In this document: positions 15,180-64,000 of the stretch, piece after piece
How the letters are laid out: the number at the start of each line of letters is the position of its first letter
Numbering within the stretch: position 1 is the first letter of the stretch
From: Acarospora socialis
Taxonomy: Eukaryota > Ascomycota > Lecanoromycetes > Acarosporales > Acarosporaceae
Length of the DNA: 64,000 bases
Direction: 5' to 3'
NCBI GenBank assembly: GCA_025617375.2
Contig: JAMYGW020000005.1
Coordinates: 2,328,501 to 2,392,500 of the forward strand
Program-made: the position numbers and the translations under genes
Notes under the pieces: generated by a model
Databases searched by the model: none
What the model saw: only the letters and a program-made list of their open reading frames with translations
Told to the model about the DNA's origin: nothing

Positions 15180-15890
15180 GTTTAGTCTCAGTGTTCTGCA
15201 AGCTTGTGTCAATGCTTTGCAAACTTATCTTAATGTTTTGTGAACATTCTCTGATGTCTTATGAACACTATGTCTCACAAATTTTCTTTAATCTTTCATG
15301 AACAGCTTCTGATGTCTTATAATCATCTATAATATTTTGCAGATCTTCTTCAATACTCTATGAACTTACTTTCAGTATTTTATGATCATTCACAATGTTC
15401 TGCAGATTTTCTTCAGTGTTTTATGATTATTTTTAATGTTTTGTGAGTCTTCTTCAGTGTTTTATAATCATTCATGATGTTTCACAAATCTTATCTAACT
15501 ACTATGAATGTCTCTAACATCTCACAAGCTTATCTGACTGTTATGAACATTTCTGACATCTTGCAAGCTTATTTAGCTATCACAAACATCTTTAATATCT
15601 TACAAGCTTATTTAACTGTTACAGATGTCTCTGACATCTCACAAACTTATTTAACTGCTGCAAACATTTCTGATATTTTGTAAGCTTATTCAGCTGTTAC
15701 AAACATCTTTAATATCTTGCAAACTTATTTGACTGTCACAAACATTTCTGATATCTCACAAACTTATTCAGCTGCTGCAAACATCTCTGATATTTTACAA
15801 GCTTATTCAGCTGTCACAAATGTTTCTGATATCTCATGAACTTACTCAGTTGCTGCAAACATTTTTGATATCTTGTGAACTTATTTAACT
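15180..15890 (+). repeat. 39-bp minisatellite coding for a 13-residue repeat
   Basis: From about 15,470 to 15,890 a 39-bp unit recurs about ten times. It contains ACATCTCACAAGCTTATCTG-like sequence with C/T and G/A variation. Translated on the + strand it gives repeats like QAYLTVMNISDIL with no stop for five units (15,474-15,683). More degenerate units with the same CAAACTTAT and AATGTTTTGTGA words extend left to about 15,180. It lies in the long 3' region of the second gypsy family. Confidence 0.7.
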
Positions 15891-17549
15891 GTGCTGAGCA
15901 AGTGAGTGATCTAACTGTGATGAAATGTTAAGACTTTTCACTCACAGTTGAGTAACTTCATCATTATAATCATGATGAAATTTTCATCAAGTCTTTTCAC
16001 TTATAACTGAGTAAGAGTCTCTGAGCAGAATGTGAAAATGTATTAAAAGTGAGTGATTTCAATTTTTTTGCATACAAAATGTGTGTCTTTCTAAACTTTT
16101 TTCTGCATCACAACATTTGCACATACAAAATCAGATCAAATATAGTTGATGAGTAGTTGTGAAGAGATTCTTCTCTGATTTATGCTTGAGATGTCATTAC
16201 TGAGCATGTGTGAATGATTTGTTTTGAACTTTAAATCATGAGTATATTGACTAACACTGTGAGTGTCAGATAACTAAATAATGACTTTTTACTTTGCAAA
16301 TGTTCAGTGATTCTCAGATCTAGTTGTTGATTTAAGTTTTTTTGACTGTATACTGACTAATCACAAGACTGCTTTCAGTGTGCAGTCTCTGTGAATACAG
16401 ACTTCAAAGAATGAGTGTATGTTAAGAAATCAATCTTAACAGCATCAGTACTGAATCACTGATGTTCTGCTGTGTTTTACACACTGTGAACATTATAAAT
16501 AGATTATTTTAATCATCAAAATAAATGTTATTTGTGTTTTAAAATGTGTTGTGTGCACTTCTGACAGTGAAAAGAAGAAGATGTTCACAAAGTGCTATGA
16601 TAATGTCTCAGACTGTATTCAGAAGTGTGTAGATTGTCTTTGAGTTGATTGTTTTTGCATTTTCAGTATTATACTGTTCTCATCTGCTTCTGCACTGCTG
16701 TCATTATTTACTTTTATATTATTATCATCATCATCTGCTCTGTCTGTTCTCACATTACTTTTTATAAATGATACAAAAGAAAAAAGTACTTCTTCAGAGT
16801 TTGATTTGTTTTTTTATCTGATGATGATTATGTACACTAACTCTGATAATATTGTTGTTTCTTTTCTCTGAGTTGTCATCTCTGAATTTGATGTCACTGT
16901 CTTCACTCTTTACATTGTTGTTGTCTGTTTCTGCAAAACTACATATATTGCAGATATTGAACTATCTTATGACAGTTTATAATTGAAAAGAAACTTCATA
17001 AATAATAAAGAATATAAGAATGCTTCAGCAGATCATGATCAAAAGAATAGAGATGTTTCTCATTACTATGATAATTTATTTTCTCTCTCTCTTCTGTAAG
17101 TTTCTTTCATACTGATATAACTTAAAATATCAATCTGAACAATGTCATCAATCAAAAAAAATAAATTAACTTTATTTTCTTCAGCAGAAGAAAATATATT
17201 GATTTTTTCTTTTTTCTGTAAATATTTTCTAATAAATATAATTCAAAGTACTGATCTGAGTAATATCACTTGTGACTGAAGAGAATAGATCTTCTTCTCA
17301 CTTCTCAGTCAGATATGTGCTGACTTCTTTGTTTAATGACATCATTTTCAAATCATTCTTCTCAGTTTTTTGCAAATTTTCTGAGAAGTATGAACAGTGA
17401 GAGTACATTCATTAATACTGCTAGATTTTCATCACAGATCTATTTTGTTAAGCTCTGTTGAGTTCTTTTAATCAGCATCTTAATTTCTTGATAATCTTAT
17501 AGTGCTGACACTTTGAGTAAAAAACACTCATAAAAGTCTGCACTTCTAT
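15891..17549. other. AT-rich 3' region of the second gypsy family, no gene
   Basis: Heavily mutated sequence between the minisatellite and the integrase end. I recognise no domain. A near-direct repeat around 15,900-16,020 (ACTTTTCACTCACAGTTGAG and ACTTTTCACTTATAACTGAG) is the only local structure noted. Confidence 0.5.
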
Positions 17550-18885: not shown

Positions 18886-19231
18886 TGTTATATAATTAAG
18901 TCAGAATGAACTTGAGATGAACTGATGCATACATGTGAAGAACATATATTTGAAAAATATTTAGACAGCAGTTACATAACATCTTGACATGCTTGACAGT
19001 GAGCTTGATGAGCAAGCTTGATGAGTTGTATGAATGAGTCATCTTGACAGACTTGATGATGAGACTGATGAGCAAGCTCAGTATATAGTCACAATTATTT
19101 TTCTTATGAAAAGAATCATATTCAACTTAAGTAATCATCTAAGAGTTAAAGATCAAAATCATTTCAGATCAGCTGTTATATCAATAAGCACAAATTCTTA
19201 GTTTTACATATCTGAGAAAGCTCAGATTAAA

Positions 19232-22200
19232 ATGTTACACTTTGAACATTTTTACAATATAATGAGTACAATGTCTGACACACAGAAGAACATCTCAATC
19301 TTGTTCTTGAAACAAGTTCAGACAAACTCATTTCTATTATTTACTTTAAATAGAATGATAGCACAATCAGTGATGATGTCAGTTCAGATGATACAACTAT
19401 CTCTGAGTGCATTTAAGATACAGATACTGAATATCTTTGATGAAGAATGAGAAAAACTGTGAGTCTTTGTGATAAAGCTCAATCTATACATTGAGTTCAA
19501 TCAGTTAAAGTTTCAAATCAATTAAGAAAAGACATTGTTTGCAGTGATCTATCTCATGAACACAGTCTTCAATTGAATCAACTTCAAGCTGCATGAGTTT
19601 CTGAGAAAGAAATATGAAGAATGCAATGCAGATGTAAAGTTCATGTTCAACAACTATGCACAGTTTAAAAAGAAACTAAGAAAAGTCTTCAGAGTAATTG
19701 ACAAAGAGAGAGCAGCAAAGAAACAAGTTTACATCTTATAGTAGAGTGAATCAGCAACAGTATACATCACAGAGTTTCAGTGACTAACAGCACTTATCAA
19801 ATGAAATAATGAAGCACTCATCTACCAGTACTACTGTGAGTTGAGAAAGTTCATTAAAGACAAGATAGCTCAAGCAAAACAATCAAACAATCTTCAGAAA
19901 ATGATCAATCTGAGTATTAATATTAATAGTTGTCAGTAAGAACAACAGATGAAACAGAAAAAATATTGAATGTTATTTATGATAAAAGATCAAGAAGAAA
20001 GCTTCTGACTGTGAATTAAGTAATATATTTTATTAATAAGATATAGAAGAATGAACTCTATAAATCTCAATACAATCAAGAAGCATCATCAGAAATCATA
20101 AAAGACTAGATGAACAGAGTATGAATGTCAGTCAGAGTGATTCACTAAGTTTCAGATGATATTGCAAAACAAGATGTAAATGTATTACAACTGTGAAAAA
20201 TTCAAACATCTTGTCTGAGAGTGTAACAGATCTCAGATGAAAAGAAAAATGTTGCAGTGATGATTAAGAAGAACACACACATAGTGCACAATATTCTCAG
20301 CTGAACAGTCTGCTACAATGACATGTGCAGAGTACACATGAACACAAAAGATAAAGTCAGATGATATCTTCAAAAGTTATATGATAAAGACATTAGAGAC
20401 AGACACAACACAATAGATTGATCAAACTATGAGAAAGAATTAGCTACTTTCACAAAAGAACATATCAAGAAAGATGTTCTTGATATTGAGATTGAAGAGA
20501 TCAATACTTGAAGAACTCAGATAAAAAAAGACTACAGTAATAGCATTTGACAAATACTGAATTCAGATGTGAATTAGAAAGAAATTAACAAATGAGAAGT
20601 CAATATAAGATTAAAGACAGCATATCAGCATTCTGAAAATCAACACTGAGTATTAAAAGAAGAAAAGCTTCAGTTTAAGAAGCAAGAGCTTGAGCAAGAG
20701 GTACAAGCTTGAAAACAGAAAACACAATGTAAGAGTATGAAAGAACAAAAAACATATGATCAGCTAAAGAAGCTGATGATAGTTATTAAAGATGAATGTT
20801 TCAACAGTGATGATGCAGTATTGTCAAAATTTCTTGTTTGACAAACAAAGAGTCACAAGATCAAGATATGCTTACTCAGAGAAGACATCATGCAAAATAA
20901 AGATAGATGAATCTTCAGCAAAGAATATATATCATTTGAATTTCTGCAAAGAGTAAAAGTCTTTGAGAGTCAGTTGCAGATGAAGTACAATCAGTATGAA
21001 TCTCAATTACACTCAAAAAGACACATTGAGCAACATAGTTTAAAGTATGTGAATCTTATGATCAAAAGAGAATCAAAGTGATTTCAAGAACTTTGAAGAT
21101 GAGCTGAACAATCAAGTGAATTAAAAAACAAAAAACTTTCTCAACAAGACTAGAGAGTAAGAAGCTAGCAACATCTCAAAGACAAAACAATGATTATTGA
21201 GTGTGAATCAAGATCACAATCAATGAACATCATATTGACACATTGATGAATTCTGAAGCAAACAGTAATATTATGAATCAGAAAACAGTCAATATGTTAA
21301 AATTAGAAACATGGTGAGCACACTGTTCATTTAACATATAAATGACAAATGAAGTCATTGAAAGAATTGATGAGAAAGTTTGTGTGAAAGTCTCAATTCT
21401 TGAAAACTCACAAGAAATAACATTCAATGTTATAAGATCAATCAGATACAATACAGTGCTAAAAATGTTCTGATTGTGCAGAAGAAATCTAAAAATTGAC
21501 TGAAGTATGAAAGAAATGTGTGCAATCAAAAACACATATAAGATTCTCAAACAATTAAAGAAGAACTTACTGAAGCATAAGTCATGAAATCACAAAATAT
21601 CACTATTGAACAGAAAGCAATCTAAGTGAATGTCATTGTACTCAATGAGTGAAAATCAACTCAAGAAAGTTAGAACTTACCTTGACAAGAATCTAAAGAG
21701 AGAATTCATAAAATCATCAAAGTCATCAGCAGAATATCTGATTCTGTTTGTATCAAAGAAGAATGACAAAAAATGACTATGTGTTGACTACAGACAACTC
21801 AACAAGATAACTCATCAAAATAATTATTCTCTATCTTTGATAGAAGAGTTGCAAGATCAATTAAACAAGACTAAGTGATTTACAAACTTAGATCTTAAAA
21901 ACACCTATTATCAAGTCAGAATGAAAGAAGATAAAAAATGAAAGACAGCATTCTGAATGAGATATGAACATTATAAATATATTATTATGTCATTTGAATT
22001 GAAAAATGCATCAGTCATCTTTCAGAGATTGATCAACAATATGTTGAGAAAATATCTCAATGATTTTGTGATCACATATCTTAATAATATTCTGATATAC
22101 TCAGAAGATCTTGAGAAGCATTGCAGATATATGTGCAAGATATTAACAAAGCTCAATGAGAGAGCTTTGTACATGAAAAAGTCAAAAAGCAGATTTAAAA

Positions 22201-24200
22201 TCAAGAAAGTTGAGTTTCTAGACTATGTGATTTGATCTAAACAGATCAAGAAGAATTTAAAGAAAATGAAAGCAGTCAGAAACTAATCAACATCAAAATG
22301 ACTCAAGAAAGTACAGATCTTTCTAGAATTGATGAACTATTATTGAAAGTTTGTATCAAACTACACAAGAATTGCAAAATCACTAACACATTTAACACAC
22401 AAAAGCAAAAAATAACACTGAAATCAAGAACAGAAGAATGCATTTCACATATTAAAGAAAAGTTTTAGCAGAACAGCACATCTGAGAATACTCAATTCAG
22501 CATGTGAAAAGACACTGAAAACTGATGCTTCAGATTTTGCAGTAAAAGCATGTTTATATCAGATTGAGAATGAGCAACAGAGATTTATAGCATATCAATT
22601 TAGAAAACTATCAGAACTCAAGAAAAAATATGAGATTCATGATAAGAAACTTCTCACAATAGTGAAAGCACTACAAGACTGAAGATCTTATCTCACAAAA
22701 ACAAACAAATCAATTCAGATCTATACAGATCACAGAAATCTGAGAAACTTTGCAATAACAAAGCAACTCAACTGACAACAGATTCATTGAGTGAAGCAGT
22801 TGATAGATTATGAATTTCAAATTCATTACAAGAAAAATAATGAGAATGATGAAGCAGATGTCTTGAGTAAACAATTTGATCATGAAGATGTACAGACAAT
22901 ACATGTTGAAATTCTGAGCAAAGACAACAAAGAAGTTCTCATAAAAGACTTAGCAGCAATGTACAAGATAAAGCAAGCTTTCTTGATGAACAAAGAACTC
23001 ATTAAAATGTGTCACTACAGCAGAGTCAGTGAATATCTAGAAATCAAGTACACTGAGAATTTAGTGTGAAGAAGATGCAACATTAGTGATTTTAGAAATT
23101 GAGTCATCAAGATGATCACTGTGTGCAACTCATGCTGAAGAAATAAGATCAGCTGAAATAGATAATATGACAAAGTAATGCAACTAGATGCATCAAGTGC
23201 ATCATGAAAATTGATTATCATAGACTTCATTATGAAGCTATCACTGTCAAAGAACTCAGCATGAAAGATGAAGTTCAATAACATATTAATCATAGTGAAC
23301 AAATTAATCAAGTACATGATGTTCATTGCATTCAAAGAAATCATGACAGCATCAGTATTGATGTACATCATACTGCAAGAATTGATTAACAATCACAGAA
23401 TATCAAAGAAGTTTATTACTGACAGAGACAAACTGTTTATAAGTAAGTTTTGAAAAATATTCACAGCAGAACTCAGAATAAAACACAAGATGTTGACAAC
23501 ATATCATTCACAAACAGACAGACAGAGTAAATGAATGAATCAAACAGTAAAAACATACTTGAAACACTATGTCAACAAGAATCAAGACAACTGAGTACAG
23601 TTGCTACTAACAGCACAGTTTGTGTACAATAATGCAAGAAACAAAATCATGAAAGAGATGTCTTTCTATGTGAACTATGACTACAACTCAGAAATATGAT
23701 GAGATTCTAAAGAACATGAATCACAAAGTCAAAAAATGATTTTGAATATTGCTCAGATGAAGAAACTGCATCAAGATTTAACAAAACAGATCAAACAGCA
23801 GACAGAATGAACAATAAAGACAAGATCATTTGAAGAAGAAGAAAGAGTATATCTAAGAATGAACAACATATAAACTAAGAGAAAAAGCAAGAAGCTGAAG
23901 AACAAGAACATTGAATCATTCAAGATCATATGAAATTTTAAAGAGTTAAGTTATGAGCTAGACTTATTCAAGAAAATGAGAATACACTCAGTATTTCATG
24001 CATTCATGTTACAGCATTACAATCAGTTCATATCACTTCAAATCATCAAAACATCTGTCAAACTCAAAGAAGAATATGAGATCAAGAACATTTTAGAGAA
24101 GAGAATGATTAGTGAGAAAGTTCACTATCTCATAAAATGAAAAGATTACAATATCTCAGAAAATATCTGAGAACTCAAAGAGAATCTCAAGAACTGCACA
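19232..24200 (+). pseudogene. Gag-pol with chromodomain of the third chromovirus copy
   Basis: Gag opens at the LTR edge (first ATG in the LTR, MSDTQ at 19,271). The RT block at 21,957-22,235 reads MSFELKNASVIFQRLIN and VITYLNNILIYSEDLEKHC, again YLNN for YLDD. RNase H follows (LKTDASDFAVKACLYQ, then FRKLSELKKKYEIHDKKLL), retaining one catalytic Asp in DASD. A YTDHRNLRNF block follows at about 22,720. The integrase extends to about 23,900. It ends in a chromodomain at about 24,100-24,190 (VHYLIK, then KDYNISEN, then ELKENLKN). In-frame TGA/TAA codons are frequent. Confidence 0.75.
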
Positions 24201-24681
24201 AGAACACTTCAATGTTTTAAAAAAAGAAGTCAATATTAGTTCAGAAGAATGACAACATTGAGTTAATGAGTTATGATATTGTTTGAGAATCTTCATTCTC
24301 AATTTCATCATTATCACTATTAAGTTCAACAACAAGACAGTTAATCTTCTGCAAAGCACAACAGTTCATCTGATTCAGTGTTTTCTGAAGATGTACAACT
24401 TTTGAGAAAAGTGCAGCAAGCTCAGTGTGCTTGACTGTCAGTTCATCATTTGCTTTACTGATTTTCTTTTGAAGTGAAAGATGAGTTTTATTGAGAGACT
24501 TTCACAATACACTGACACATGAATGATCATGATGAGTACACTTATCACATTTTGATTAAGATTTCATTACAAAACAGTTGATGCTGCAATGAGCACAATA
24601 GTCACAAGAAAATGAGACAGACACATCACTGATTTGAATTTTCTTTGTGATTCTTAGGTGATTTGAATTTTTAGAAAGCAT
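24190..24681 (-). pseudogene. Antisense Cys-rich accessory gene, copy 3
   Basis: It starts at an ATG at 24,681 and reads against gag-pol, ending at the integrase/chromodomain end. In order: a Cys cluster (SCDYCAHC, then SKCDKCTHHDHSC), a coiled-coil stretch (KTHLSLQKKISKANDELT, then ELAALFSKVVHLQKTLNQM), LVVELNSDNDEIENE and a TISELINSM tail. This is the clearest of three copies and has only two or three stops in about 160 codons. I do not know the function. The metal-binding cluster plus coiled coil suggests a nucleic-acid or protein-binding role, which is inference. Confidence 0.6.
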
Positions 24682-25116
24682 CATTGCTGATAACAAACAA
24701 TATGAATACTCTTACTTATATAGATTCTAGAGAACTAACATCTGAGAAGAAAAAAATAATGTTATGATCAAGTCAGAATGAGCTTGAGACAGACTGATGC
24801 ATACATGTGAAGAATGTATATCTGAAGAATATTTAGACAGCAGTCATGTGAGATCTCAACATGCTTGATGATGAGCTTGATGAGCAAGCTCAATGAGTTG
24901 CATGAATGAGCTGTCTTGATGAGCTTGACAACAAGACTGAAGAGCAAGCTCAGTATATAGTCACAATCATTTTTTTTATGAAAAGAATCATATTCAACTT
25001 AAGTAATCATCTAAGAGTTAAAGACCAGAATCATTTCAGACCAGTCATTATATCAATAAGCACAAACTCTTAGCTCTACATACTTGAGAAAGCTCAGATT
25101 AGAACATTACACTTAC

Positions 25117-56470: not shown

Positions 56471-58242
56471 AGTCGGTCTTCGAACTCAAGTGCCTCAAGA
56501 GACTCAGAGTCTAATATGATAACAATCCACCGCGGCTGCACGCAAAGCGAACGAAAACTGGAGGTTCAGGGCATGATGCAATGCCAACAGCAGGCATCGG
56601 AGGGCTTGCCAATAGTAACTGGTATTCGAGAGTTCGTTACAATTCAATCTCAAATATCTCGTATCACCGGTGTGTCGATCAACTCGAACTAGATATGGAT
56701 ATACACTTTTGTATGAGCGGCCGCGACCAGGAACGATGAGGTAAGGCAGCTGCGGCGTGCGATGGGGCGGCAGAGATCAGAGGTCGCGGCAGGAGCGGCG
56801 AAGGGCCTCGAGGTGGTTATGGTGTAAAAGTCACGGTAGAGCGAGGATACTCGCGATGAGATGGAGTGCCGGGGTGACCAGGTTTCCCTTAGCTTTCAGT
56901 GACTAAAGTGCAATGTCAGTAAATACCGTGTAAGGAAGGGACCACTTATCGGGCCAAAGGGACACTCCGCTCTTCGTCATCGTAAACGATGACCTGCACA
57001 CCAACTCGAACGAAGTCGGGGACCTATACACACGAAGAAAAGGGACCGGATCACGGCCGCATCAACCGCAAAATTTCATGTGCAATCTCGCCTCGAGTCT
57101 GACTAAGTGCAGCCTCACGGTTTGCGGATCGCCCCAAGTAGAGATGGCAGTTAGTACGCAGTCTTGGCGCCCTCATGCGCACAAGCTCCAACATCTCTGT
57201 CATCTAGGACGAGGCGGTGGGAGGGGAGTGCCGGGCGTGGGGTAAAGGGGACGGCCGCGACAACGAGGAGGGGTGATGGACGCGGCAACAAGGACGACCC
57301 TGACGCAAGCGGCAACAAGGACGACCCTGACGCAAGCGGCGACGAAGAGGGCAAGATAGGCACGGCAACGACAATGATGGTAGGCAGCCACAAGAGACAA
57401 AAACACGATATGCTGTAGCAGTCCGACAACCAGGGTAGGGTACACCTCACAATAACTCGATTTTCTCATAGCGGGCACGGCGCGAATCTAGCGGCGCGGT
57501 ACGTTTCATAGAACTACATATGTTAGCCTTGCGTCGAGTCTTCGGTGAGTAAAGATGAGATAAATGTTGGCAGAAGTAGGGCGCCCAACGACGCAAACCC
57601 AATTCAGAGTGTCAAGAGTCCACCATATTTGCGCCGATGAGCGCAAACATGGTGATTATCATACATAATATCGGCGCGGCGCGACGCGCATGCCCATTAC
57701 ATGCGAACCGGATAAAACCTTACAGACTACAAGGTAAAATCTGCCCACAAGACAATCAATCTGTGATTGAATGCTTAGATTTGTTTTGACATCACTGACA
57801 TGATAGTCGGATACGAATAGGCCTCCGGGCCCCGAACCTCAGCAGGCCGGCAGCGGGGTCCCGGTGGAATTCCGGGGCTCCAGCCGGCGAATTGCAATTT
57901 CACCATGGGCGGGGATAAATCCTTTGCATACGACTGAACTGACTCGCCGGGTCGTGTAAGCGGTAGAGTAGCCTTGTTGTTACGATCCGCTGAGCGTAAG
58001 CCCGCACGAGCCGATTTGTGTGAGACACTCTCCCCCACCGAGACGTGGGCGTTCCAGGCCCGGTCAGCGACCGGGGCTCGGAGGGGGGGGGTTTTGTGCA
58101 GTACCACTGCCCATGAAAGGCCATAGAAGACAATAGCATAGAGGCGCACACCTTGGCTCTCCACGGAGAGCAAGCAGTATATATCTTCACAAAGGCGCTG
58201 GATGAGCAAAGACTCGGCTAGGTTTTGAGAGATGCAGGGCTG
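56471..58242. other. Intergenic, no confident gene
   Basis: Only short overlapping frames. 57,164-57,418 (plus) encodes a duplicated Asn-Lys-Asp-Asp-Pro block from a tandem duplication; 57,775-58,209 (minus, 144 residues) has no recognisable domain. I do not support either as a gene. Confidence 0.45.
57284..57337 (+). repeat. 27-bp perfect tandem duplication
   Basis: Two identical 27-bp units starting GGCAACAAGGACGACCCTGA lie head to tail. The length is a multiple of three, so any frame through it is kept. Confidence 0.85.
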
Positions 58243-58343
58243 CAGGCTCTCAGGGCCTCTACCTTGTTATGTCATCATCGACTTCTTTCTGAAAGAAAAG
58301 AAGTCGATGATGACATAGCAGGGCTAGGGGTCGTGAGGGCCTG
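58243..58343. repeat. Long imperfect inverted repeat (hairpin)
   Basis: The inner arms 58,265-58,288 and 58,297-58,320 pair at 23 of 24 positions around an 8-nt loop (core TCATCATCGACTTCTTT). Outside them the pairing continues with mismatches and gaps to about 58,243 and 58,343. It sits just before the first unit of the GGGTAAG array. A Pol I/II terminator, a MITE remnant or a small-RNA precursor are possible; the sequence does not decide. Confidence 0.75.
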
Positions 58344-58462
58344 TGTGAAATGAGCCGCCGAAACGCATCGAGTGGGAGCGATGAAAGTAAGCTCGGACAA
58401 TACTGTTTCTTGCGCTCCGCGAGGAGATCTTGTTTTTTTCCTTTTGACGTGGTTTCACGGCA

Positions 58463-61400
58463 GGGTAAGTTAACCATGATGGGGGCACATTTGGCCGTTA
58501 GGCCCCGTGTGCTCGCGGAAGCTCGCGACGCTCGCAAGAAGGTTCGACGTTGAGGGAGAACCCTTGCCCGTGAAAGTGCAGGACGAGGCACGGGGAACAC
58601 CTGTCAGGTGACGATGACCTTGACGGTGCTTTGCTTCCGTTCAGACCCGCCGCCGCAGCAGCTCTTTGTTTTTAGGCAACCATCAGGGTGGGGTAAGTAT
58701 CTGAAGATCTCACAAAATGCTGTCAGCCGTGCTGATGGCCGGGTAAGAGGTAGAAAGAAGGAAAGAACTTGGTCTCAATCACTCTGTGCAAGTGCAACAC
58801 CTTCTCGACACTTTCCTGCACCACATCATTTGCGCACATTCACTCGCATTGAAATGGGTCGGAGGACTTGTGAGAAAAGCCACACATGCAGGTGGAAAAG
58901 AATGAAGGCCAGAAGCGGGCAGAAGTGGAATGAGGATGACAGTGAACTTGTGAAAAGAAGCAGGCATGACAGGTGTGAAGGAGCAGACACAACAAGGGTG
59001 GGGGAGCCAGCACAGCAGGTGTGAAAGAGTCACAGGGCCTCCAGGTTTCAAGGCAAGAGATGTGGGAACAACGGAGCATCTGGGAGCAAAGATGAGGGTG
59101 ATGTTTGCTTTTGAGCAAATCGCTGCCGGGTCAGATTTGTGCTGATGGGAGCACAAAGTTCAGAAACCATCTCACAACAGGGTAAGGTCTGATGACTGCA
59201 GTTGAGTGGTTTGCTGATGGTCAGGAAGGGGCAAGTTGCATGACTATTGAAGCTGTTCATGACAGGGTAACGTATCTTTTATCATTGATCAACTTACCCG
59301 ACGACGACCTTGATCAGAGGTGGGTAAGCTTGCAGTCACATCAAATGGGGATGAATTTGCCCGGCGCTGATCACAGTCAGCGCCGGGTAAGGGTCCCGCA
59401 CGGGCAGGGTCGGTACTTCCACTTGGCGGACGATTCCGTCACAGGTGGGTAAGCTCGCTCGAGATGGGTTGAGGGTGTTGCTCGACGGGGAATGCTGTCA
59501 CAGGTGGGTAAGTTGGTGGTGTGAAGATATCACTTGGATGGATGGTCTTGAGATATCATTGCCGTGGTCATCACCGGGTAAGCCGGTGACCGAAGCTCGT
59601 GAGACTTCTCACCGCGGGGTCGGTGTGCGCTTTTGAGGTTGTCTGTCACAGGTGGGGTCACTTTGTACATCAACCCCTCGATGTTTCTGACCCGGCACTG
59701 ATCACGCTGATACCGATCGTTCGTCACAGGGTAAGCCCGCGGCTCGCGAAGCGTGTGAGGGCCCGTCGTGGCAGGGTAAGTTTCACCTGCCTGTGCACAC
59801 CTGCACTTGCGCCCAAACGCCATGCGCACTGTGGTCACCGCCGGGTAAGTCTTGCCCGCGTGCACACCCGCACTTGCCTGCGCACCGCAGTCATCGCCGG
59901 GCAAGTTTCGCCCGCGCATGCGGTTGGTGGCCGCGGTCACCCCCGGGTGAGTCCCGCAGGGTAAGTGCACTTCGCTCGGGGGCCGCTTGGTGTGACACAA
60001 ATCACTGTGAGGTAAGCTGCAGCTCATCGGACGTCTGAGCACGATCACAGGTGGGTAAGTGTCTTCGGCACCAAAGCTGTTCGCATTTGCGGTCACGGCC
60101 GGGTAAGCGCGCGCTGCATGCAACCCATTCCGCCTGGCCGACACCGGATCTTTGTCACCGGCGGGTAAGCTGCACCCCGTTTGACCGAGACCCCTGTCAC
60201 GGTCGGGTAAGGTCTGCGGTCCCCGGCCAGTTGACCTTCATCACAGGTGGGTAAGTGCACTTTGCACGAGAGCCGCGGGTCACAGGTGGGTTAGACCGAG
60301 AGCGCTTACCTGGCGACGGTGGTCACGTCCGGGTAACGACCTGCGACACCTTCGCTTACCCGGCGTCGAATTCTGCTCACGGCCGGGTGAGGTCTATCTC
60401 ATTGTCGCGAAGCTGGTCATGGACGGGTAACCTCATGTGCGACACCTTCCCCTTGCCCGGCACTGATGGCACTTCCGAAAGCTGTCTGAATGTGAAAACT
60501 ACTGCAAGAGATAAGACTGGGGAAAATCAACATGGTGTTGATTCAGATGAACAATCAATCACACAACTGTGATCTTAATCAACAACTTTGAGTTTTCTAC
60601 TCATACGACGTATATCAACGTCCATTGTCATCATGCACAGAAAGTCACATCACAGAATTGTATTTGCAGAAGGTCAAAACTGTCTTGTGAGACCTCACGC
60701 GGCTGATATGCTGAGTAAGTCAGCCTTCACAGGGGACAAAAGCACACACTTTCTCCTTTGACAAGGGCCGACGACAACACTATCTACACATCCCAACCAC
60801 AAAAGTCCATTATCACGTAGCTGCCAAGACCTGCGAGGCACTGAGTGAATGTTGAGTGAAGGGAATGATCGAATTCTAGACTAGACAAACAGGTAACTGC
60901 CTACCAAGTAAAAGACTTAAGGCTGAAGAGAAAAGGAAACACTTTGGGGGGCCAAGCCAGAGACTTATACCCTAGCATGGCCGGGTAACCGGAAGTGAAA
61001 ACATGCTTTTGACGTCAAGAATAACACAGAAAACACCCACTAAGCTGACTGAGCTGCAGGCGAGAGTGAAGTGAATAAACATAGGAAAATCCTTCCAATC
61101 CTCCTAGTCCCCACAGCTTACCCTGCTGCGATCCTGTACCTCTGACGTCTTTCCCGTCTGTTTCCCGTCTATGTTGTTTGCCCGGCCCCGACTCTGTGGA
61201 GCCTGGAGGTCATTGCTGGGTAAGACCCGCTGCACCCACGGCGGCTGTCGCGGTCACGGCCGGGTAAGTCTCGTCCGCCCGCCCGCCCATGCAGTTTGCA
61301 GTCAATCGCCCTCACCACCGGGTAGGGACAAGTTCTGGCGCGCCTACATGCGCACCATCCTCAACCCAGGGTAAGCTCCGCCCGCCCAGGCGGTTGCTGT

Positions 61401-61886
61401 CGCGGTCATCGCCGGGTAACCCTCCCCCGCACCCGCACCCACATGCCACGCGCGTCACCCTCATCACAGGGTAAGTGCTGCCCGCCTGCGCACACCTTGG
61501 AGCCGCACGCACCTGCATGGTTACAGTGGCTGCGGTCACTGCCGGGTAGGTCTTGCCCGCCCACGCACCCACACCCCACACACTCGCAACCACCCGCATC
61601 GCGCACCACCTTCACCGCAGGGTAAGCCTCGCCCACCCATGCAGCTTGCAGCCGTCACGCTCATTGCTGGGTAAGTCTCACCCGCACGCACCCACCCGCC
61701 GGCCACGCCAATCGCCGTCATCGCAGGGTAAGCCTCGCCCGCGCATGCGGTTAGTGTATCGTCGCGGTCACCGCCGGGTAAGGGACGCCCGCGCCCACCC
61801 ACGCACCCACGCCGCCCGCACGGCCACGCAAGTTTCGCCCACCTGCGCGATTTTCGCAAAAGTCCCCTCGATCAGTGCCGGGTAAT
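58463..61886 (+). repeat. Array of about 39 GGGTAAG-core sites (Reb1-like)
   Basis: GGGTAA occurs 32 times on the + strand, plus about seven one-base variants, from 58,463 to 61,885. One or fewer would be expected by chance. The flank is also conserved: GTCAYNGCC or GTCACAGGT or CATCGCA directly before the core. Spacing is mostly 40-75 bp with GC-rich, CGCCCGCGC-type filler in the densest parts (59.2-60.4 and 61.2-61.9 kb); 60,431-60,982 has no unit. Only four clear inverted sites were noted (about 59,293, 60,305, 60,352, 61,114). CGGGTAA is the recognition core of yeast Reb1. That a Reb1-like Myb protein binds here is inference. Confidence 0.8.
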
Positions 61887-62222
61887 TCCCACCGAGCGAA
61901 ATCCGATCCGCACCAAAAGTGGGCGATTTCAAAATTTTCGCACTCAAAATCGCCTCGCGTCAGACATTTTCCCGCACCGCCACAATTGCGCGCGCAAAAG
62001 CAAGCTAAACAGGATCGGTGGGTTTTCGAAAGAGGGCCCTGGGCCTCTAGCAAGTGATGCAAAAGCGTCCCATAGGCCGGCGTGCCACAGAGACACTGGA
62101 AGAGTCCGTCGGAAGGTGTCTCTGCCGCGAACCAAGCCACCCTCCTAGTGATATTGGCCCTACCCCGCCTGGGCTCGCACCCGGGGGTCACCGATCACTT
62201 GGAGGTAGTTGGCGGCAATCTT

Positions 62223-62258
62223 GGGCACCCGTAGGTTACCCATAACCTATGGGCGCCC
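62223..62258. repeat. 16-bp inverted repeat with 4-nt loop
   Basis: Arms GGGCACCCGTAGGTTA and TAACCTATGGGCGCCC pair at 14 of 16 positions (two G/A-type mismatches) around CCCA. The position in the spacer before 18S suggests a rDNA control element, but the role is unknown. Confidence 0.75.
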
Positions 62259-62403
62259 AGTCGCACCCCTTGGCACGTCCGTTGCGCTCCATCCCCGAAG
62301 ACTGCACCCTAGCCACTTAACTGTGTGTGTTTGACAGGTGCACCTCCGGGGGTGTAAGTGCAGGATGTCAGTGTCGCTTGCCGGGGCCTTGGGTCCTCTT
62401 TCA

Positions 62404-62481
62404 CCTGTCCGTGTCTCTCAAATTCGACCCGTGGGCGGGGTCCCCTGTCCGTTTCTCAAAACCTGACCCGTGGGCGGGGTC
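62404..62481 (+). repeat. Two tandem spacer repeats of about 38 bp
   Basis: Each unit runs from CCTGTCCGT through TCTCAAA to GACCCGTGGGCGGGGTC. The copies differ by small indels. Such short subrepeats are usual in rDNA spacers. Confidence 0.75.
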
Positions 62482-63051
62482 ATTTGGTGTCCCATGGTAG
62501 CCTGACCCCTTAACTGCGGATCGAGTTCAGTTACGCCAGTGCCCAAAGGGCCAGGCGGCTTCGATCCAGGTGGGTGGTCGACTACCCGTGTGGCGGCTGT
62601 CCCGACAGACCCTCTGGTCCGACGGTGGCCGCTGCATGGGTGCCTGAAGATCCGTAGGTTTCGTGCCTGCGGGCTCTGACGGAGTCTGTGGATGGTTGGC
62701 CGATGGCAAACATTATTCGCAAGACAATTGGGGGCAAGCCCAAGCCGATAGCCGCCCTCGGGCGTGATCAGCGAACGGTATCCTCCTCCTGAGAGGCGTA
62801 TGCCGCAGTGTCACCGGGACATGGCCCTCACGGGTCCGAGGTGACCTCTGTGGCGGACCGTCTTTTGGGGATCTCAGTGGGGGCAATTGGATGGCCTGGA
62901 GGGACCTACCTGTTGAGCGGCAACGCTCCGGTGTGTGTTCCCGGGCCGGGTGCCGACTGCGGTCCACCCCGATCACTTAACTGTCCTGGCCCCTTCGGGG
63001 GTTCATCCCGGGAGGCTGGCGCCTGTCGTCGCAGCCCGGGTTCACGGTAGT

Positions 63052-64000
63052 TACCTGGTTGATTCTGCCAGTAGTCATATGCTTGTCTCAAAGATTAAGC
63101 CATGCATGTCCAAGTATAAGCAATCTATACGGTGAAACTGCGAATGGCTCATTAAATCAGTTATCGTTTATTTGATAGTACCTAACCTACATGGATAACC
63201 GTGGTAATTCTAGAGCTAATACATGCTAAAAACCTCGACTTCGGAAGGGGTGTATTTATTAGATAAAAAACCAATGCCCTTCGGGGCTCCTTGGTGATTC
63301 ATAATAACTCAACGAATCGCATGGCCTTGCGCCGGCGATGGTTCATTCAAATTTCTGCCCTATCAACTTTCGATGGTAGGATAGTGGCCTACCATGGTGT
63401 TAACGGGTAACGGGGAATTAGGGTTCTATTCCGGAGAGGGAGCCTGAGAAACGGCTACCACATCCAAGGAAGGCAGCAGGCGCGCAAATTACCCAATCCC
63501 GACACGGGGAGGTAGTGACAATAAATACTGATACAGGGCCCTTTCGGGTCTTGTAATTGGAATGAGTACAATTTAAATCCCTTAACGAGGAACAATTGGA
63601 GGGCAAGTCTGGTGAACTGACACAGTTCCGGCATGGTGGGCTCCAAGCCCCCAGCTGGCGCCAGCGACAGGCGGTCGTCCCGGGCACTCAGAGAGCCTGG
63701 GGCAATCAGCTTAGTGGAGGCTACCCTCCGCGAGGTGTTCGGCACGGGGAAGAGCCATCTTGGCTTCATCCCGTGGCCGGGGGTACGGTACCCCCGGCCT
63801 TAACGCGCGCAAGGACGCCGGTGGACGACGTCTTCCACTTGAGGGACGTGCTATACCCGCCCGTCAAGGGCCCGGAGCGATACCCCACCCGGGGCGCTCC
63901 CACGGGGAACAACAGGCCAGCAGCCGCGGTAATTCCAGCTCCAATAGCGTATATTAAAGTTGTTGCAGTTAAAAAGCTCGTAGTTGAACCTTGGGCCTGG
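63052..64000 (+). rRNA. 18S (SSU) rRNA gene, 5' part, partial
   Basis: It starts at TACCTGGTTGATTCTGCCAG and continues through conserved blocks (GCTCATTAAATCAGTTATCG, AATTCTAGAGCTAATACATG, GAGCCTGAGAAACGGCTACC, GCCAGCAGCCGCGGTAATTC). It runs off the window at 64,000. A group I intron (63,614-63,915) interrupts it. The sequence fits Pezizomycotina. A few positions differ from near-universal residues, for example GGGTTCTATTCCGG where GGGTTCGATTCCGG is normal (63,421-63,434). Confidence 0.97.
63614..63915 (+). ncRNA. Group I intron at SSU position S516
   Basis: The conserved 530-loop sequence CTGGTGCCAGCAGCC is split after CTGGT by 302 nt. The inserted segment follows a U and ends with G (AACAACAG before GCCAGCAG), the group I boundary rule. 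The site is the known S516 insertion point (E. coli numbering). Possible core elements are GGCAATCAGC (Q-like) and GTTCGGCACGGGGA (R-like). At 302 nt it has no room for a homing endonuclease. I could not assign a subgroup or draw a complete P1. Confidence 0.85.

Follow-up and report, generated by a model that had tools for sequence, protein, structure and literature searches.

The intergenic spacer of the rDNA in Acarospora socialis, between the 28S 3′ end and 18S, is itself an array of Reb1-like sites, graded in strength and nearly uniform in orientation, and its likeliest function, put forward with modest confidence from the arrangement of the DNA, would be that of one main Pol I terminator backed by about 39 Reb1 roadblocks as a fail-safe, which would arrest oncoming replication forks too. 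The Reb1 and TTF1 systems described in the excerpted literature have one or few sites per rDNA unit, compared with forty here. A natural spacer with forty sites is a test of why sites multiply, be it for termination, fork arrest, chromatin or copy-number control, and a motif with an extra upstream half, together with an identified Reb1 orthologue, makes the binding code directly testable. The features are collected in Table 1.

Table 1. Features of the window, the 64,000-nucleotide stretch analysed (position 1 is its first letter)
Feature	Position	Strand	Detail
Words in a dispersed repeat, not rDNA	15490..15888	-	11 words spaced exactly 39 bp apart, each of which could derive from a Reb1-like core by C>T/G>A mutation
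Mutated copy of the dispersed repeat	15952..16640	+	includes the promoter-like block; its Reb1-like site is mutated
Truncated 28S rRNA 3′ end, proximal rDNA edge	57800..58019	+	cmscan LSU_rRNA_eukarya, model end 3401 at 58019, 75.5 bits
Long RNA hairpin 3′ of 28S, processing-stem-like	58242..58344	+	-80.6 kcal/mol, z -12.4, matched by 0 of 200 shuffles
9-bp RNA hairpin directly 5′ of the T-rich tract	58406..58426	+	-8.9 kcal/mol, z -1.7, matched by 12 of 200 shuffles: weak
T-rich tract, non-template strand	58426..58447	+	sole tract with at least 10 T in 14 within 58020-63050
First Reb1-like site, putative main Pol I terminator roadblock	58455..58469	+	22.9 bits
Reb1-like site array	58455..61886	+	40 plus and 6 minus sites (at least 9 bits), median plus-site spacing 55 bp
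Insert resembling dispersed genome repeats	60477..60831 (~0.36 kb)		many genomic places at 70-78%; lies in a 558-bp gap
Promoter-like block	61850..62038	+	76% shared with the dispersed repeat; promoter role inferred from position
Last Reb1-like site, promoter-proximal	61872..61886	+	16.2 bits; the C20 repeat has a site in the corresponding position
18S rRNA gene, truncated where the contig ends	63052..64000	+	cmscan SSU_rRNA_eukarya, 598.6 bits

Contig C5, in a genome of 31.1 Mb and 38 contigs, has the window as its right end (2328501-2392500). GC is 27-32% over the first 38 kb of the window, the part from 40 to 57 kb bears genes, including those for Pam17 and an MFS protein, and the part from ~57.8 kb on holds the edge unit of an rDNA array transcribed away from the chromosome arm. 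The left limit of the 28S piece (~57.8 kb) was set by eye. A preliminary description had placed the array beside the rDNA, next to 18S; the link to rDNA stands, while the position becomes that of the spacer, between the 28S end (58019) and 18S (63052). Just before the rDNA edge there is a 27-bp tandem repeat with 2.2 exact copies (57282-57340), and inside 18S an insert of ~0.3 kb (~63618-63912), model positions 1-650 being spread across 949 bases, that by eye resembles a group I intron in a commonly occupied position.

The same description had counted about 39 motif copies with a Reb1-like core, nearly all facing one way, and on each of these points the counts agree with it. Exact GGGTAA occurs 32 times on the plus strand and 3 times on the minus strand of 58400-61950, where 200 dinucleotide shuffles lead one to expect about 0.5 per strand, with maxima of 3 (plus) and 4 (minus). 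A 15-column weight matrix applied at a threshold of at least 9 bits yields 40 plus and 6 minus sites against a mean of 0.4 and a maximum of 2, both strands together, in 100 dinucleotide shuffles, and matrices trained on one half of the array recover sites in the other (13 plus and 2 minus in one case, 27 and 5 in the other, for mononucleotide-shuffle means of 0.26 and 0.62). The binomial p for 40:6 is 3e-7, to be read in the knowledge that copies made by duplication are not independent.

The motif, TCAYNGCNGGGTAAG, is 15 bp long. Around GGGTAA in the 32 sites, strong conservation (>0.6 bit) is restricted to -8 to +6, in the layout TCA, two free bases, GC, one weak position and GGGTAAG. Because GGGTAA was the selection criterion for those sites, the independent evidence is that of the columns outside it: T30, C30 and A29 at -8 to -6, G25 at -3, C23 at -2 and G26 at +6. 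Flanking columns at -11 (0.55 bit, C/T) and +16 (0.36) rise weakly above the 99.9% null of 0.34 bit, and so the earlier view that conservation is confined to the motif holds for the 15 strong columns but not for these two, nor for the filler, which is partly homologous. Likewise, the motif does recur through the 3.4 kb as had been claimed, but not without a break, as the AT-rich insert interrupts the array. In form, TCACNGCCGGGTAAG is a putative Reb1 site made of a TCA half and a GGGTAA half. The TCA half is outside the yeast core, and that the Reb1 orthologue reads it is a prediction. The yeast Reb1 core has the same orientation relative to Pol I as the sites of the window, the upstream TCA half being a difference from S. 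cerevisiae, and the S. pombe Ter motif also differs from the motif here upstream of the core. Site spacing is irregular, with no helical phasing (R <=0.08). Three of the six minus-strand sites, at 59293, 59356 and 60355, form inverted pairs, each with a plus site 21-22 bp further on (shuffling of positions gives p 0.002, for a distance range picked after seeing the data).

Are the forty sites alike in their surroundings? The first one stands apart. In yeast, Pol I comes to a halt 15 bp ahead of the Reb1/Nsi1 site, within T-rich sequence, and an upstream RNA hairpin brings about release (PMC12366685); an A/T-rich tract followed by a Reb1 site is described there too (PMC8701712). Here the first Reb1-like site (58455) is downstream of the 28S end, and ~15 bp before it is a non-template T-rich tract, inside which the position 15 bp upstream of 58455 falls; when the count is made from GGGTAA (58463), the predicted stop lies 3 nt past the tract's final T. 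The likeness to T1 of S. cerevisiae, as far as the excerpts of the two papers describe it, extends to the tract and the Reb1 core behind the 28S 3′ end and may extend to an upstream RNA hairpin: the strong hairpin is ~80 nt upstream of the T-rich tract and the one directly before it is the weak 9-bp stem. Rfam miRNA matches over the strong hairpin have sub-gathering scores and were taken as chance matches to a long stem. A first site just behind the only T-rich tract of the spacer is putatively the layout of a yeast Pol I terminator. At every later site such a tract (at least 10 T in 14) is absent, the second site having a shorter T stretch, and folding of the RNA ahead of the sites is not more stable than at random positions (mean -14.4 versus -12.9, sd 5.7; first site -11.0), which leaves the idea of a terminator hairpin before each site unsupported. 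Because they have neither tract nor special RNA structure, the later sites may be pure roadblocks that stop Pol I without release.

The mechanism that these features suggest is as follows. The non-transcribed spacer of each rDNA unit would be a series of binding sites for the fungus's own Reb1 orthologue. At its start the first site would act as the main Pol I terminator, with the T-rich tract, the roadblock behind it and the RNA hairpins upstream, and the ~39 later sites, in near-uniform orientation, would be fail-safe roadblocks halting read-through Pol I ahead of the next promoter, directly before which the last site (61872) would be placed. The same orientation would also block replication forks moving against rRNA transcription, and an occupied array would leave little room for nucleosomes. 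Binding, termination, fork arrest and nucleosome exclusion are what we infer from the observed sites, their orientation, anatomy and recurrence, and the presence of the protein.

How much of the excess is owed to Pol I, and how much to forks? In excerpts of PMC5368702, Reb1 at Ter2/Ter3 in S. pombe rDNA arrests forks that head towards the transcription machinery, and Pol I from the other side. Because Reb1 fork arrest is polar in fission yeast, the array would stop forks opposing transcription; oriented Reb1-like sites in an rDNA spacer, as Ter2 and Ter3 are, is what the 40 plus and 6 minus sites amount to. The near-uniform orientation fits both roles. It is consequently conceivable, if unlikely, that a polar fork barrier of the Ter2/Ter3 kind is the main reason for the retention of so many sites and that Pol I termination needs the first site only, a view with which the 40:6 orientation, the T-rich tract found at site one only and the polar arrest seen in S. 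pombe (PMC5368702) all agree. Against it, S. pombe has two Reb1 sites, so that forty would go unexplained, and there are six minus sites, three of them paired with a plus site 21-22 bp further on, at which the barrier would point in the opposite direction. S. pombe resembles the present case in having a Reb1-family protein and sites in the spacer, with both Pol I arrest and polar fork arrest seen there (PMC5368702, excerpts), and differs in its two sites, arrest of Pol I and of forks at the array here being a prediction.

Chromatin offers another reading. Of the 45 linkers between sites, 42 are <147 bp, shorter than a nucleosome, and the spacer has sites at either end; according to excerpts of PMC11358750, terminator and promoter are brought together by TTF1 sites lying upstream and downstream. 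An occupied array might keep the spacer nucleosome-free or, by Reb1 self-association, link terminator with promoter or spacer with spacer. As neither exclusion nor looping needs strict orientation, we hold this to be distinctly unlikely as the chief role, and prefer the terminator with its fail-safe roadblocks.

The filler between the sites speaks of how the array grew. Among 741 filler pairs (39 of the 40 sites, one overlapping site being left out), 34 align above threshold versus 3.7 expected, concentrated at 59766-59937 and 61210-61780, and this excess argues that the array grew partly by duplication of motif plus filler. In the 34 homologous pairs identity is 91% for the informative core, a figure that selection of the sites on that very core biases upward, and ~53% for the filler's first 25 nt; after duplication, therefore, filler drifted more than core. 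Over all pairs filler is 29% alike across 20 nt, against 25% predicted from composition alone. Tandem Repeats Finder has no entry within 58463-61886, and head-to-tail copies alike along a whole unit, such as a minisatellite has, are not what that run or the 29% filler likeness shows. The earlier preference for a binding-site array over an ordinary minisatellite is upheld by the lack of a reported tandem array and by a 15-mer that is held while filler varies, and filler is not as conserved as core. Improbable, then, is a decaying GC-rich minisatellite whose unit by chance had one Reb1-like site, most copies being passive: the homology of 34 of 741 pairs, with duplication having had a part in growth, is in its favour, and the empty Tandem Repeats Finder result, filler scarcely above composition, the retained 15-mer and irregular spacing are against it. 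The weak flanking conservation and the slight filler excess over composition take a little from the roadblock explanation and give a little to this one.

Does the array belong to the edge of the rDNA or to its every unit? It had been suggested as a special boundary between rDNA and the chromosome arm, and a check on its recurrence had been proposed. It occurs in 13 spacer stretches found by similarity, and is whole in 5 of them; as the same sequence is in 12 such stretches besides that of the window, a boundary element exclusive to the array edge is rejected. The rDNA unit period is ~13.6 kb, and the number of units is a lower bound, because rRNA genes are largely masked in the loci compared and a spacer unlike that of the window could escape a similarity search. 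Nor is the motif spread evenly through the genome: TCACNGCNGGGTAAG is present 59 times, all on eight contigs (C5, C18, C20, C23, C24, C27, C28 and C37), and its reversed control not once. A looser pattern has 190 matches in the whole genome versus 7 for its reversed control, and outside the C5 rDNA, C18, C20 and C21 there are 8 single matches among C1-C22, one of them within an rDNA relic on C10. On C1-C22 such isolated matches are about as frequent as those of the reversed control, and genome-wide regulatory sites in the long motif form are unsupported there. Comparison of spacer copies gave 14 variable columns, none in the 551 core columns where ~2 were expected, numbers too small to reveal constraint; of the 54 gap columns, 9 lie in cores.

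Some places away from the main array deserve record. Three same-strand Reb1-like sites are within 138 bp at C21:11836-11973, in DNA of which a copy elsewhere in the genome was not detected. On a large contig away from the main array, C10:942824-951578 is a decayed spacer relic, 73-92% identical in three pieces, with one exact match to the looser pattern where ~0.3 of roughly ten is estimated to be expected at 73% identity, so that motif retention is not shown by it. C18 begins with telomere repeats and reaches rDNA spacer, in the opposite sense, at ~99.4 kb; it fits as the telomere-side rDNA edge, and C5 and C18 may flank the same rDNA array. At C18:99139-99445 spacer identity stops at the equivalent of window position 60083, and six further sites of at least 9 bits are in diverged sequence.

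The preliminary description looked to a Reb1/Myb orthologue, and there is one, at a locus on C3 that is closest to S. pombe Reb1 and far ahead of the rest among 15 Myb loci. By sequence it has a Reb1-type Myb DNA-binding region (phmmer to 5eyb, E 8.2e-20, 74 bits; next PDB match 38 bits), and its best named relatives are in the lichen fungi Lignoscripta, Candelina, Lasallia and Blastenia, a lichen-forming filamentous ascomycete, or one allied to such, being likely on that ground. In the seven minus-strand loci of the 15, none of three Reb1 words is present. PF21559 (Reb1_MybAD) has no match in this genome or in 14 control genomes and is not listed by hmmscan of the Reb1 locus.

Mouse has ten TTF1 sites plus T0. 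The mammalian Sal boxes are like the present array in being repeated sites behind an rRNA gene with one upstream, and TTF1 is a Reb1-related Myb protein with orientation-dependent binding; its motif is another one, its sites are fewer and its fork arrest is described as two-sided (PMC11358750, PMC5368702, excerpts). S. cerevisiae also has a further Reb1 site before the promoter, the place where Pol I piles up in a mutant, and differs in that one terminator-proximal and one promoter-proximal site are described, versus about forty here (PMC8701712, excerpts). As an rDNA element the array is a familiar type on a far larger scale, its function being presumed. Such an array was not found among the matches listed in a search of titles and abstract starts on Reb1, TTF-I and rDNA spacers, subscription literature being mostly outside its reach, and the motif letters led to unrelated papers among the matches listed. 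Viral contigs gave 0 matches to a three-site pattern and contigs of prokaryote genomes 1, which lies on a bacterial MAG contig, is a ~54-bp tandem repeat without Rfam match and was taken as unrelated. One lead, and a lead only, to similar arrays is a study available in excerpt (PMC6945747), which could resolve in none of its lichen-fungus specimens a region of repeats close to the 5′ end of that spacer.

The promoter-proximal end of the spacer resembles a dispersed repeat. A query from its C20 copy matches 12 non-rDNA places, itself included, of which 10 overlap the promoter-like block, and the spacing between Reb1-like site and block is the same in rDNA and repeat. The sequence upstream was read in two copies, those of C20 and the window, both with Reb1-like cores. 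Repeat-induced point mutation is established in filamentous ascomycetes, and the C-to-T and G-to-A changes of the window copy would fit it; words compatible with a mutated core number 11 at 15490..15888 versus 4 on the rest of the plus strand of 1-38000. The C20 copy (C20:65780-67199) has a small number of units, unevenly spaced, whose core lies on the minus strand. Can mobile DNA borrow a Pol I promoter and its barriers? The similar layout of the repeat raises the question, and may reflect sequence exchange with the rDNA spacer. The repeat is perhaps transcribed by Pol I, or may exploit Reb1 barriers to lodge in nucleolar DNA or recombine with it. That Reb1 sites and a Pol I-type promoter form a transferable module, and that the rDNA array is an extreme serial barrier whose forty sites would make termination and fork arrest near absolute, we offer as speculation, less probable than not by some way. 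Open pieces tried from the repeat are without Pfam match, except for RT/RNase H pieces probably of another element, and as a retrotransposon it was rejected, the RT fragments at 21957-22679 probably belonging to a separate LTR element. That probable element, at 18891-25114 in the AT-rich part of the window, has direct repeats of ~352 bp that are 85.5% alike, and its RT/RNase H fragments are broken by stops.
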